Source: Actinomadura violacea (GTDB lineage: Bacteria; Actinomycetota; Actinomycetes; Streptosporangiales; Streptosporangiaceae). From it: DNA of 64,000 nt. A program made the position numbers and the translations under genes. Of the stretch, positions 26,711-38,557 are shown in pieces; positions within the stretch are counted from its first letter, which is position 1; every line of letters starts with the position of its first letter. The notes under the pieces are model-generated. The model saw nothing but the letters and a program-made list of their open reading frames with translations, had not been told where the DNA came from and did not search any database. The stretch lies in the NCBI RefSeq assembly GCF_017573465.1, contig NZ_JAGEPF010000037.1:1-64000 (forward strand), given 5' to 3'.

Positions 26711-28837
26711 ATGCGGCGAGGCGAACCGCGGGGCCACTGGATCCTGCTGCTGCTCGGCGGCCTGGCCCTGACCGTCCTGCTGCTGCTGGACGGCTACGCG
26801 CACGGCGCGGTCGGCGAGGCGCCGCGCAAGGACCCGGCGCACCCCGTCCCCGCGCCGTCCCAGATCACCTCCGGCGGCCCGGTGCTCAACCTGGCGGGCG
26901 GGACACCGCACTCGCTGCGCACCCCGGCCAAGACGATCGCGCTGACCTTCGACGACGGCCCCGACCCTAAATGGACGCCGCGGATCCTCGACGTGCTGCG
27001 CCGGCACGGCGCGCACGGCACGTTCTTCGCGGTCGGCGCGCACATCGCCGAGAACCCGGGCCTGACCCGCCGCATCCTGCGCGAGGGCAACGAGATCGGC
27101 TCGCACACCTACACGCACGTCGACCTCGCCACCGCCCCGGCCTGGCGCGCGCGCCTGGAGCTCGACCTCACGCAGCGGGCGCTGGCGGGCGCGGCGGGCG
27201 TCCACACCCGGCTGATGCGGATGCCGTACTCGTCGGTCCCGGACGGCCTGACCGCGCCGGAATGGCGGGCGGCCGAGCGGGCGGGCAAGGACGGGTACGT
27301 CGTCGTCCTCACCGACCGCGACACCGAGGACTGGCAGCGGCCCGGCACCGAGAAGATCGTCGAGACCGCGCTCGCGGCCGAGCGGCGCGGCCAGGGCGCC
27401 GTCGTCATGCTGCACGACGCGGGCGGCGACCGGGCCGAGACCGTCGCGGCCGTCGAGCAGATCATCGACCGGCTCCAGCCGCGCGGCTACCGCTTCACCA
27501 CGCTGTCGCAGGCGATGCGGATGCCCGCCGCCGACATCGCCGTCCCGGGCCGGGAGAAGGCGATCGGCTGGACGCTGGTCGCCGCGCAGCGGACCGCGTC
27601 CTCGCTCACCGGCTGGCTGGGCGTGCTGTTCGGCGCGGCCGGGGTGCTGTACGTGCTGAGGCTCGTGCTGCTGCTTTTCTTCGCGCACGTGCACGTCCGG
27701 CGGGTCCGGCGGCCACCGGACCGCCCGGTGCCGCCCGGGCCGTACCCGGACCTCTCCGTCATCGTCCCCGCCTACAACGAGGAGGCCGGGATCGCGGCGA
27801 CGGTCCGCTCGCTGCTCGACACCGACTATCCGGGCGCGTTCGAGGTGATCGTGGTGGACGACGGGTCCGCCGACCGCACCGCCGCGATCGTCGAGGGGCT
27901 CGCGCTGCCGGGCGTCCGGCTGCTGCGCAAGCCCAACGGCGGCAAGCCGAGCGCCCTGAACGCGGGCGCGGCCGCGGCGCGCACCGAGATCCTCGTGCTG
28001 GTGGACGGCGACACCGTGTTCCAGCGCGACACCCTCCGGCACCTCGTCGCGCCGCTCGCCGACCCGCGGGTCGGGGCGGTGAGCGGTAACACCAAGGTCG
28101 CCAACCGGGGCGGGCTCCTCGGCCGCTGGCAGCACATCGAGTACGTGATCGGCTTCAACCTCGACCGCCGGATGTTCGACGTGCTGCAGTGCATGCCGAC
28201 CGTCCCGGGCGCGATCGGCGCGTTCCGCCGCCCGGTGCTGGCGCGGGTCGGCGGCGTGCCCTCCGACACCCTCGCCGAGGACACCGACCTCACCATGGTG
28301 ATCTGCCGCTCCGGCCACCGCGTCGTCTACGAGGAGAAGGCGATCGCCTGGACGGAGGCGCCGTCGTCGCTGCGGCAGCTGTGGCGGCAGCGGTACCGCT
28401 GGTGCTACGGGACGATGCAGGCGATGTGGAAGCACCGCCGGTCGCTGATCGAGGGCGGCGCGTCCGGCCGGTTCGGCCGCCGCTGCCTCACCTACCTGGC
28501 GGTTTTCCAGGTGCTGCTGCCGCTGTTCGCGCCCGCCGTCGACCTGTTCGCGCTGTTCGGCCTGATCTTCCTGAACCCGCTGGAGCCGATCCTGCTGTGG
28601 GCCGGGTTCACGGCCGCGCAGACCGCCGCGGGCGCGTACGCGCTGTGGCTGGACGGCGAGCGCATCCGCCCGCTGTGGGCGCTGCCGCTCCAGCAGTTCG
28701 TATACCGGCAGCTCATGTACCTGGTCGTCGTCCAGTCGGTGGTCACGGCGCTGCTGGGGTCCCGGCTCGGCTGGCACACGATCCGCCGCACCGGCACGTT
28801 CTCCGACGTCCCTCCGCAGCCCGCGTCCACCGGCTGA
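26711..28837 (+). CDS. matB: bifunctional polysaccharide deacetylase/GT2 synthase, MatB-like
   Basis: A 708-residue membrane enzyme. After one N-terminal helix (11-27) comes an extracellular NodB deacetylase domain: TFDDGPDP at 79-86, metal ligands H132 and H136 in SHTYTHVD, RMPYSS at 170-175 and LHDAG at 234-238. A helix (about 300-325) leads to a cytoplasmic GT2 domain: SVIVPAYNEE (349-358), VVDDGS (381-386), VDGD (431-434), EDTD (523-526) and QRYRW (560-564), then three to four helices. The order matches MatB of Streptomyces, which makes a PNAG-like extracellular glycan that glues hyphae. The fusion corresponds to PgaB plus PgaC functions. It is divergent from an ECF sigma/anti-sigma pair. 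Confidence 0.85.
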   Translation: MRRGEPRGHWILLLLGGLALTVLLLLDGYAHGAVGEAPRKDPAHPVPAPSQITSGGPVLNLAGGTPHSLRTPAKTIALTFDDGPDPKWTPRILDVLRRHGAHGTFFAVGAHIAENPGLTRRILREGNEIGSHTYTHVDLATAPAWRARLELDLTQRALAGAAGVHTRLMRMPYSSVPDGLTAPEWRAAERAGKDGYVVVLTDRDTEDWQRPGTEKIVETALAAERRGQGAVVMLHDAGGDRAETVAAVEQIIDRLQPRGYRFTTLSQAMRMPAADIAVPGREKAIGWTLVAAQRTASSLTGWLGVLFGAAGVLYVLRLVLLLFFAHVHVRRVRRPPDRPVPPGPYPDLSVIVPAYNEEAGIAATVRSLLDTDYPGAFEVIVVDDGSADRTAAIVEGLALPGVRLLRKPNGGKPSALNAGAAAARTEILVLVDGDTVFQRDTLRHLVAPLADPRVGAVSGNTKVANRGGLLGRWQHIEYVIGFNLDRRMFDVLQCMPTVPGAIGAFRRPVLARVGGVPSDTLAEDTDLTMVICRSGHRVVYEEKAIAWTEAPSSLRQLWRQRYRWCYGTMQAMWKHRRSLIEGGASGRFGRRCLTYLAVFQVLLPLFAPAVDLFALFGLIFLNPLEPILLWAGFTAAQTAAGAYALWLDGERIRPLWALPLQQFVYRQLMYLVVVQSVVTALLGSRLGWHTIRRTGTFSDVPPQPASTG

Positions 28838-28895
28838 CGGATCTCGGCCGCCGGGCGGGAACAATCCCGGGGGTCCCATCGGTTACACAAGACAG

Positions 28896-28997
28896 CCGGT
28901 GTGCCTGGTGTCCCCGGGCCTCACCTATAGCCTTCACGGAATACCGTTCGGCTGGAGCCGTGTTGAGCCTTTCGCCGAGAGGCGACCCGCACACCGG
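28896..28997 (+). ncRNA. candidate structured RNA upstream of tenA
   Basis: A 266-nt gap between the MatB-like gene and tenA folds into a multibranched structure by eye. P1 is a 9-bp closing stem (28896-28904 with 28989-28997). P2 is GGC-bulge-TCA with TGA-GCC (28917-28923 with 28964-28969). Inside P2 are hairpins ACGG-AATA-CCGT (28936-28947) and CGGC-TGGA-GCCG (28949-28960). P5 is TCGCC-GAGA-GGCGA (28972-28985). A 16-bp terminator-like hairpin follows at 29005. It lacks the TPP riboswitch consensus. An unrecognised riboswitch or small RNA is possible; the strand is assigned because the hairpin follows the structure. Confidence 0.5.
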
Positions 28998-29004
28998 TGC
29001 TTGA

Positions 29005-29044
29005 CCAGGGCCCCGCCGGGCCGCAAGACCCGGCGGGGCCCTGG
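29005..29044. terminator. strong GC hairpin before tenA
   Basis: A perfect 16-bp stem, CCAGGGCCCCGCCGGG (29005-29020) and CCCGGCGGGGCCCTGG (29029-29044), with an 8-nt loop. It may end MatB-like or ncRNA transcription, or act as an attenuator for tenA 59 nt downstream. There is no long T tract. Confidence 0.7.
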
Positions 29045-29103
29045 TCTGTCCGGGGAGGGGCGTCCGGGATGGTCGTGTCCGGGGAAATGCCAGACTTGCC
29101 AGC

Positions 29104-29712
29104 ATGAGTCTCGCCGCCCGCCTGGAGGACCTCGGCCGCCCGCTGGTCGAGGAGCAGCTGAAGCACCCCACCGTCGCCGGCATCGCCCGCGGCGACCTCG
29201 ACGAGGCGGTCTTCCGCTCCTGGCTCGAACAGGACTACCTCTTCCTGCACGACTACGTCCGGGTGTTCTCCCGGCTCGCCTGGCAGGCCCCGTCCGCGCA
29301 CCTCGGCGACCTCGTCGACCTGGCGCACGCGACGTACCACGACGAGCTGGACCTGCACCGGTCGCTGTCCGCGGAGTTCGGCGCCGACCTCGACGGCGCC
29401 CGCAAGGGCCCGCCCTGCGCCGCCTACACGGCGTTCCTGCTGGACAGCGCCGCCTCCTACGGCGACGGCCTCGCCGCCCTGTACCCGTGCATGTGGGGCT
29501 ACTCGACGCTCGGCACCCGGCTCGCCGAGGACCCGCCGGCGGAGCCGCGCTACCGCCGCTGGGTCGACACCTACGCCGACCCCGGCTTCGCCGAGCTGAC
29601 CGGCCGCATCGCCCAGATGATCGACGAGTCCGGCGCCGACCCCGCCCGCGCGGAACACCTGTTCCTTGAGGGCATGCGCCACGAACTCGCCTTCTGGGAC
29701 GTCCCGCTCTAG
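29104..29712 (+). CDS. tenA: TenA family protein (thiaminase II/aminopyrimidine aminohydrolase)
   Basis: A 202-residue all-helical TenA protein: 'EEQLKHPTVAGIARGDLDEAVFRSWLEQDYLFLHDYVRVF' (residues 16-55), 'TYHDELDLH' (78-85), the active-site cysteine C129 in 'YPCMWGYSTLG', and a C-terminal glutamate in 'FLEGMRHELAFWD'. TenA of the Cys type hydrolyses aminopyrimidine from degraded thiamine to HMP for thiamine salvage. A -10-like CAGACT ends 7 nt before the ATG, so the mRNA may be leaderless unless transcription starts further up through the structured element at 28.9 kb. It converges with copA. Confidence 0.92.
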   Translation: MSLAARLEDLGRPLVEEQLKHPTVAGIARGDLDEAVFRSWLEQDYLFLHDYVRVFSRLAWQAPSAHLGDLVDLAHATYHDELDLHRSLSAEFGADLDGARKGPPCAAYTAFLLDSAASYGDGLAALYPCMWGYSTLGTRLAEDPPAEPRYRRWVDTYADPGFAELTGRIAQMIDESGADPARAEHLFLEGMRHELAFWDVPL

Positions 29713-37030: not shown

Positions 37031-37083
37031 CCGTTTGCGCCCTTTGTGGGGGTTGCGGGCGGTTGTACGATCGGTGCCGACCG

Positions 37084-37181
37084 ATACCCGCGGGAGCTCG
37101 GGCCATAAGCCGGGCTGAGAGGGCGGCCTTCAGGGCGCCGCCGACCGCATGAACCTGTCCGGGTAATGCCGGCGTAGGGAG
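37084..37181 (+). ncRNA. TPP (thi-box) riboswitch
   Basis: The leader shows the conserved thi-box elements in order: GCGGGAGCTCG, GGGCTGAGAGGG (37113-37122 region), then GACCGCATGAACCTG, GGGTAATGCCGGCGTAGGGAG. Thiamine pyrophosphate binding folds it and hides AGGGAG (37176-37181), the ribosome site of the permease gene, so control is probably at translation. It shows the downstream permease imports thiamine or a precursor. Confidence 0.96.
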
Positions 37182-37189
37182 TGTGGCCC

Positions 37190-38557
37190 GTGGCGTCCGA
37201 CGTCGAGAAGACCCTTGCGGACGAGCGTCCGCGGAACGAGGTCCCGTACACGCTGGACGAGCCGGCGCCGAAGGTGCTGGGCTTCTGGGACCAGAGCGCG
37301 TTCTGGGCGAACCTCGGGGTGAGCCTGCTGGCGTTCTCCGGCGCGTACACCGTGCTCGCGCCGGACGCGGACGGGAAGCCGACGCTGGCGATCGCGGCGG
37401 GGATCGTCGCGATGATCGTCGGGACGGTGCTGGGCGGGCTGATGCTGGGCCTGGCCGCGGCGCCCGGCGCGAAGACGGGCCAGCCGGCGATGGTGCTGCT
37501 CAGGGGCCTGTTCGGGGCGCGGTTGTCGTACGTCCCGACGGTGCTGAACATCGCGCAGCTGATCGGCTGGGGGACGTTCGAGCTGATCGTGATCGCGGAC
37601 GCGGCGCGGGAGCTGTGGGACGGGGTGCCGCGCTGGGGGTACGTGGTCGCGGCCGGGGCGATCACGACGGTGCTGACGATCTGGCCGCTCGGGTCGGTGC
37701 GGCTGCTGCGCCGGTACGTGACGGTCGCGGTGATCGTGGCGCTGGTGTACTTCTACGTCCAGCTGGTGCGGCAGCCGCTGCCGGATCTGAACCACGGGTC
37801 GTGGGGCGGGTTCTGGGTCGGCGCGGACGCGGCGCTGGCGGTGTCGATCTCGTGGGTGCCGGTGGCGGCCGACTACACGCGGCACGCGAAGAGCGCCCGG
37901 GGGGCTTTCGGGGCGGCGTCCGTCGGGTATTCGGTCACCCAGATCATCGCGTACGTGCTGGGGCTGCTGGCGCTGGCGCTCGTCGGCGGCGACACCGACC
38001 GGGTGTTCGACCCGTTCCTGCACGTCGCGCTGGGTGCGGTGTTCTTCGCGGTGTTCGTGCTGCGGGAGGCGGACCAGTCGTTCGCGAACGTGTACTCCAC
38101 CGCGGTGTCGATCCAGAACCTGGTGCCGCGCGCGGACCGGCGCGTCCTGTCGGTGGCGCTGGGCGTGGGGATCACGGTGCTGGCGCTGGCGCTGGACATC
38201 AACGACTACGCCGGTTTCCTGTCACTGATCGGGTCGGTGTTCGTGCCGATGCTGGGCGTCCTCGCGGCGGACTTCTTCCTCGGCCGGGGGCGCGCGGGCT
38301 GGGATGCGAGCCGTACGGCGCCGTCGCGGTGGAGCATGATCGCGGCGTGGGCGGTCGGCTTCGCCGCCTACCAGCTGATCAACCCCGGCACGGTGCGCCG
38401 GTGGGCGGACGTGTGGCGGCACGTGCAGGACGCGCTGCACTTCACGCCGCAGAGCTGGATGAGCGCGTCGCTGCTGTCGTTCCTGGTCGCGGGGGCCGCG
38501 ACGCTGCTGATCGGCTGGGCGGGCGCCGCCCGCGGCCGCGGTATTACCCGGCGGTAG
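37190..38557 (+). CDS. cytX: NCS1-family permease, CytX-like HMP/thiamine-precursor transporter
   Basis: A 455-residue permease with about 12 membrane helices of the nucleobase-cation symporter family (NCS1, cytosine permease-like): 'GFWDQSAFWANLGVSLLAFSGAYTVLAP' in helix 1 and 'AVSISWVPVAADYTRHAKSARGA' in the middle. The TPP riboswitch directly upstream identifies it as the CytX type, thought to import hydroxymethylpyrimidine. The GTG at 37190 is 8 nt from the riboswitch-controlled AGGGAG and is preferred to the GTG at 37181, which overlaps that site. With tenA at 29.1 kb it suggests thiamine-precursor salvage. Confidence 0.92.
   Translation: MASDVEKTLADERPRNEVPYTLDEPAPKVLGFWDQSAFWANLGVSLLAFSGAYTVLAPDADGKPTLAIAAGIVAMIVGTVLGGLMLGLAAAPGAKTGQPAMVLLRGLFGARLSYVPTVLNIAQLIGWGTFELIVIADAARELWDGVPRWGYVVAAGAITTVLTIWPLGSVRLLRRYVTVAVIVALVYFYVQLVRQPLPDLNHGSWGGFWVGADAALAVSISWVPVAADYTRHAKSARGAFGAASVGYSVTQIIAYVLGLLALALVGGDTDRVFDPFLHVALGAVFFAVFVLREADQSFANVYSTAVSIQNLVPRADRRVLSVALGVGITVLALALDINDYAGFLSLIGSVFVPMLGVLAADFFLGRGRAGWDASRTAPSRWSMIAAWAVGFAAYQLINPGTVRRWADVWRHVQDALHFTPQSWMSASLLSFLVAGAATLLIGWAGAARGRGITRR

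Follow-up and report, generated by a model that had tools for sequence, protein, structure and literature searches.

A candidate family of structured small RNAs downstream of SigR/SigH-type promoter motifs in Actinomadura violacea and related actinobacteria

The window analyzed here is a 64,000-nucleotide stretch of the Actinomadura violacea genome (contig NZ_JAGEPF010000037.1, positions 1 to 64,000, forward strand). The element under study lies between a gene at 26711-28837, which encodes a polysaccharide deacetylase/family 2 glycosyltransferase fusion, and a gene at 29104-29712 of the TENA/THI-4 family (PF03070, 91.8 bits; the thiaminase II model TIGR04306 scores 88.4, under its cut-off of 130), so that tenA does follow the RNA, as a first-pass annotation of this DNA had said. 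A TPP riboswitch (RF00059, 58 bits) at 37080-37197 is the sole Rfam match in the window, and it precedes an open reading frame that reads like a permease. The features of the RNA locus are collected in Table 1.

Table 1. Predicted features of the RNA locus and the adjacent tenA promoter region, in window coordinates.
Feature	Coordinates	Strand	Basis
SigR/SigH-type promoter: -35 GGAAC 28858-28862, 19-nt spacer, -10 GTT 28882-28884	28858-28884	+	motif kept in relatives
Stand-alone small RNA gene; transcript of about 155 nt, both ends predicted	28890-29050	+	covariance models and homologues
P1, 5' side, pairs with 28989-28997	28896-28904	+	covariation
Junction segment UCCCCGGGC, nearly invariant	28911-28919	+	alignment of 102 non-redundant sequences; pairing probabilities
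P2 arm: P2a 28930-28932 with 28965/28967/28968; P2b 28935-28939/28958-28962; P2c 28944-28946/28953-28955	28930-28968	+	
P3, GNRA-capped hairpin UCGCC-GAGA-GGCGA	28972-28985	+	sequence; alignment of relatives
P1, 3' side	28989-28997	+	covariation, including a structure-blind alignment
GC hairpin, perfect 18 bp (29003-29020/29029-29046), terminator-like, no T run	29003-29046	+	
AGACT, probable -10 box in a leaderless promoter belonging to tenA; outside the RNA	29092-29096	+	

The first-pass annotation had proposed a multibranched RNA in a 102-nt span closed by a 9-bp P1, and this helix was recovered exactly; its 5-bp P5 hairpin is also present and is called P3 here. The two 4-bp hairpins that it had drawn inside P2 (probably ACGG/CCGU and CGGC/GCCG) did not survive comparison, as the relatives keep neither of them. 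Across 113 aligned relatives P2 is a single continuous arm of nested helices, P2a (3 bp), P2b (5 bp, CACGG/CCGUG) and P2c (2-3 bp). The length of P2 varies, with a long insert at its tip in some relatives and a short arm in others. In four loci with weak scores (L066, L067, L068 and L071) a simple hairpin replaces P2, and promoter-like GGAA[T/C] boxes lie upstream.

The complete structure (P1, P2a, P2b, P2c and P3) was tested against shuffled controls using all 113 rows, the weak row L199:1130-1192 included. In this alignment, which had been fitted to a model containing most of the tested pairs and so favours them, 96.2% of 2860 cells were paired compared to 85.2% in the shuffles, and none of 500 shuffles scored as high. 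Cells changed on both sides numbered 299 (67.5 in shuffles; 0 of 500 as high), the covariation score was 0.318 (0.110 in shuffles; 0 of 500) and 15 pairs carried a double change (11.4 in shuffles; 1 of 500). When partners were slid as a control, only 28.5-42.1% of cells were paired. After removal of L199:1130-1192 and of sequences more than 95% identical, 102 of the 113 sequences were kept for further alignment. A structure-blind MAFFT alignment of these 102 contained the same base-pair exchanges, and when all their column pairs were searched openly, the eleven that scored best were eight from P1, two from P2b and one from P2c.

Changes on both sides were observed in nine of ten P1 pairs, counting one extra outer pair, and in four of the five P2b pairs, while the first P2c pair switches from C-G to U-A in 14 sequences. 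The innermost P1 pair is paired in 75 of the 108 sequences having letters there and unpaired in the other 33. By comparative sequence analysis the element is a structured RNA whose helices P1, P2b and P2c covary beyond shuffled controls, covariation being the check that the first-pass annotation had named. The structure exceeds chance: the 181-nt stretch folds at z = -4.75, a value to which the GC hairpin contributes, and the covariation of P1, P2b and P2c is much stronger evidence. When the window transcript is folded by minimum energy without constraints, P1 does not form, so this helix rests on covariation and not on energy.

The remaining parts of the core hardly change. The inner four pairs of P3 are identical in 112 or 113 of the 113 rows, its outer U-A pair is unpaired in 35 of 113, and its loop reads GAGA, GCGA or GUGA among the relatives. 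Since P2a and P3 vary so little, covariation neither proves nor disproves them; P2a, inner P3, UCCCCGGGC and CGCCGNGAGGCGAC all seem to be kept for their sequence. Pairing probabilities from folds in which P1, P2b and P3 were held, calculated for 96 of the 102 sequences, leave the CCC of UCCCCGGGC mostly unpaired and its GGG mostly paired. The strand that follows, CUCACCUAU, is also mostly unpaired in these folds, and it varies among relatives. Two other local stems were considered and discarded: a CCUGG/CCGGG stem of our first consensus is not kept by the relatives in the structure-blind alignment, and an alternative GGC/GCC stem (alignment columns 28-30/41-43) is unsupported, having a last pair that is standard in only 59% of sequences and two others that never vary.

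The first-pass annotation had named a lack of covarying pairs and a match to a known Rfam family as refuting outcomes; covarying pairs are present and no known family matches the window RNA, both of which speak for a real RNA. In Rfam 15 no family reaches the gathering threshold in the window stretch, and none fitting appears up to E 10 at 28700-29300. Seventeen loci carrying relatives, of short and long form, gave only a tRNA at gathering. A literature search by topic, locus tag and sequence letters found no description of the RNA, although single copies may be catalogued, without being assigned to a family, in the supplementary tables of Streptomyces small RNA studies.

The RNA is widespread in the class. 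A DNA search matched 40 of 59 related genomes, among them every one of the 36 from the genus Actinomadura. Covariance model R1, built from 29 sequences, had matches in 110 of 393 sampled genomes from the class; in the window's own family it matched 45 of 45 genomes, 41 of them with at least two copies. In the family f20, probably Streptomycetaceae, 22 of 43 genomes match, taking two tabulations to be the same draw. Model R2, made from the refined structure and 92 sequences, matched 108 of the 393, but missed genomes G339 and G160, whose RNA copies were among its own training rows, so strict filters lose weak copies. Weak matches, from about 1e-6 upwards and including the short forms, are uncertain, as R1 and R2 disagree on them. 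Of 346 genomes drawn from the phylum, class members among them, 16 matched, and all 16 belong to the class. A pattern scan of named genomes found at least 118 stretches, among them ones from Micromonospora, Actinoplanes, Nocardiopsis, Thermobifida fusca, Lentzea, Amycolatopsis, Geodermatophilus and Streptomyces.

Copies are also carried by 71 plasmid records (34 from Streptomyces, 19 from Rhodococcus, 15 from Prescottella and three others). The annotated neighbours of the Rhodococcus and Prescottella plasmid copies (L032, L033, L211, L212 and L213) differ from one another. Two or three adjacent copies of the RNA occur at L107, L075, L074, L113, L173 and L177, which include loci from Thermobifida fusca and Lentzea. 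The presence of copies on conjugative and mobilizable plasmids, together with these tandem arrangements, is what a mobile or selfish DNA element, such as a recombination or transfer site, would also produce. We find that reading scarcely credible. The covarying helices contain many G-U pairs, which are common in P1 and fit an RNA rather than a DNA element; a promoter motif and a terminator-like hairpin flank the RNA; and neither a blastn search of a phage collection with 28890-29000 nor an exact-pattern search of viral contigs found a copy.

For the analysis of flanking signals, 213 HMM matches in 201 of 203 loci (L066 and L067 had no HMM match) were reduced to 172 copies with full flanks and distinct cores. 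The pattern GGAA[T/C]-N15-20-GTT, sought in the upstream 65 nt plus 6 nt, is present in 144 of the 172 copies and in 0.6% of random windows from the same loci. It was likewise found in 81 of 100 loci retrieved with a pattern drawn from the RNA's 3' half, in 33 of 42 among loci L036-L085 and in 18 of 25 representatives less than 80% identical to each other. The spacer of the 144 motif copies is 18 nt in 133, 19 nt in ten and 17 nt in one. The window copy reads GGAAC-N19-GTT and the second copy in the A. violacea genome (G000:C6:235061-235188) reads GGAAT-N18-GTT. Some of the 28 copies without the pattern have near forms such as GGAAG or GGAAA with GTTG.

The -35 box is GGAAC in 102 of the 144 motif copies, and GGAAC is found at this position in many ECF promoters. 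The sections of PMC9205884 drawn on here give the SigR consensus as GGAAT-N18-19-GTT. The copies follow this SigR/SigH layout, with an 18-19 nt spacer and GTT, once GGAAC is accepted beside GGAAT, and the 102 copies that depart from the published GGAAT make it possible that another ECF sigma factor, for example a SigE-like one, reads the same RNA. We consider this rather unlikely, as both the spacer and the GTT match the SigR motif as quoted from that source, and the same layout (GGAAT-N18-GTTG) stands in front of a sigma-factor open reading frame in the A. violacea genome. This frame lies beside rsrA, identified by TIGR03988, and is read as sigR-like. The RsrA family itself is matched in 384 of the 393 genomes (310 above cut-off), so its co-occurrence with the RNA says little.

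On the downstream side, a hairpin of -25 kcal/mol or lower follows the RNA in 151 of the 172 copies; shuffles reach this in 7% of cases and random windows in 10%. The GC hairpin of the window had been described as perfect and 16 bp long; it is perfect, but extends to 18 bp. Both neighbouring genes were called in 163 of the 172 copies, using a home-made codon-usage caller whose starts can be wrong; the gene that follows shares the RNA's strand in 98 of these and lies on the opposite strand in 65. The RNA overlaps a called gene in only two of the 172. At the loci tested with Pfam outside Actinomadura, the neighbours mostly differ between lineages and include DNA ligase, DAHP synthase, aldehyde dehydrogenase, G6PD, SDR and exporter-like genes.

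A fixed same-strand position in front of the genes of one pathway is found only within Actinomadura, where a same-strand gene of tenA size lies downstream in 22 of 25 loci, so that a local effect may exist there. The first-pass annotation had offered a riboswitch or attenuator linked to thiamine salvage as one possibility. In such a cis-acting arrangement the junction would bind a thiamine-related ligand and the 18-bp hairpin would be the expression platform for tenA. The order of an aptamer-like three-way junction, a terminator-like hairpin and then tenA would suit it, as would the constancy of the tenA-size gene and a 24-member blastp cluster of downstream proteins that takes in the window's tenA. 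We set this candidate aside as very improbable because the neighbours tested elsewhere are unrelated, because 65 of 163 downstream genes face the other way, because the promoter of the RNA is of stress type, and because in 18 of 24 Actinomadura-type loci tenA has a promoter-like box of its own, AGACT, whose distance to the called ATG is 11-12 nt. Of the six loci without this box, three (L007, L009 and L029) have visibly wrong called starts, and the other three (L010, L011 and L128) have related but different boxes. The box is probably the -10 element of a leaderless tenA transcript. The TPP element at 37.1 kb, a multi-branched RNA like the one described here, is the single thiamine riboswitch detected by Rfam in the window; up to E 10, neither a TPP match nor anything else relevant appears at 28700-29300.

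The other possibility raised in the first-pass annotation, a small RNA ending in the hairpin, gains support from the RNA's own promoter motif, the terminator-like hairpin and the lack of a fixed neighbour. With its own promoter and terminator signals, an intergenic position and no single downstream gene, the RNA probably qualifies as a stand-alone small RNA. We consider it likely that 28890-29050 encodes a small non-coding RNA that is independent of its neighbours and belongs to a family not represented in Rfam 15, with a SigR/SigH-type promoter and a hairpin end. Sequence comparison shows that the fold is conserved, that a promoter motif and a terminator-like hairpin accompany it, and that the RNA is widely distributed, occurs in several copies per genome and has no fixed neighbour; transcription, induction by thiol-oxidative stress and action in trans we infer.

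As a working model, an ECF sigma factor of the SigR/SigH type would read the RNA gene from the GGAAC-N19-GTT motif, and the GC hairpin would end the transcript. A SigR-type promoter implies induction by thiol oxidation. Translation-inhibiting antibiotics are given as SigR inducers in Streptomyces in the part of PMC4921905 drawn on here, and if this holds for the present hosts such antibiotics would be expected to induce the RNA too. The RNA would fold as a P1-closed three-way junction of P1, P2 and the GNRA-capped P3, with the nearly invariant UCCCCGGGC inside. Together, the invariant junction and P3 would provide a site where a single conserved partner, a protein most likely, docks, and the stress-induced RNA would capture or guide that partner. 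Docking of this kind is the most likely mechanism in our estimate, which falls somewhat short of an even chance; the invariant helices and the GNRA loop fit a protein docking site better than they fit antisense pairing.

A trans-acting base-pairing RNA, in which the CCC and CUCACCUAU would pair with G-rich translation start regions under stress and without Hfq, comes next in our estimate, well below an even chance. It would make use of the CCC of UCCCCGGGC and the next strand, which stay mostly single-stranded in folds constrained to contain P1, P2b and P3, and C-rich loops are noted as a theme of Streptomyces small RNAs in the portion of PMC3765725 consulted. We compared the junction strand to the start regions of 294 neighbouring genes, the only genes covered by this test, for which 169 of the 172 copies had the junction motif. 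Pairing was no better than in shuffles and if anything worse, with no preference for start regions over internal regions (294 windows, p = 0.18), and the same windows gave no signal for an anti-Shine-Dalgarno role of the junction strand. No conserved long complement was seen with one 17-mer in 13 Actinomadura genomes: allowing one mismatch, the 17-nt complement of the junction had six extra sites in four of the 13 genomes and none in the other nine. Base pairing would also have to accommodate a CUCACCUAU that varies among relatives, and by itself leaves the sequence conservation of P2a and P3 unexplained.

We propose, tentatively and with less than even confidence, that this new structured RNA class serves the thiol-stress (SigR) response of actinobacteria as an RNA arm, that it occurs in all genomes sampled from the window's own family and has been spread further by plasmids, and that it works by binding a specific protein or small molecule with its three-way-junction core, not by simple antisense pairing.

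Among known systems, the RNA is provisionally filed with the sigma-factor-controlled small RNAs, its core being unlike the usual antisense type. RybB, MicA and OxyS are stress small RNAs of enterobacteria that pair by short seeds with Hfq. The window RNA resembles RybB and MicA, and OxyS by role, in being short, intergenic and equipped with a stress promoter and a terminator of its own, but differs in its invariant multi-branched core; its actinobacterial hosts are not known to carry a typical Hfq. The 6C RNA, which consists of two hairpins with C runs in the loops, and other C-rich-loop RNAs such as scr5583 are likewise small actinobacterial RNAs with a C-rich stretch, whereas the window RNA has no Rfam match to 6C. 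Ms1 and 6S-type RNAs have a different fold and again no Rfam match to the window RNA; they share a wide actinobacterial distribution with it, and Ms1, in the account drawn on here, acts through a protein, the RNA polymerase core. The SigR (SigH) regulon of actinobacteria is alike in promoter layout, GGAAT-N18-19-GTT in the sections of PMC9205884 used above, but the regulon members described in those sections, where SCO6404 has the highest expression of the SigR targets, are protein genes, and no such small RNA is named there. If SigR-type promoters precede a conserved RNA in Streptomyces, Micromonospora, Actinoplanes, Thermobifida, Nocardiopsis and Lentzea, this would open post-transcriptional control in the SigR response to test, and the strict core of the RNA offers a clear handle for partner capture.

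The second copy in the A. violacea genome (L077) has a longer P2 and lies next to a DUF3040 gene and a gene with a histidine-kinase-like ATPase domain, in which an RsbA-like anti-sigma model scores far below its cut-off. In Streptomyces and Streptomyces-like chromosomes the RNA of L061, L114, L170, L186 and L202 is in the outer part of the contig, as accessory arm genes are, with L058 as a counter-example.
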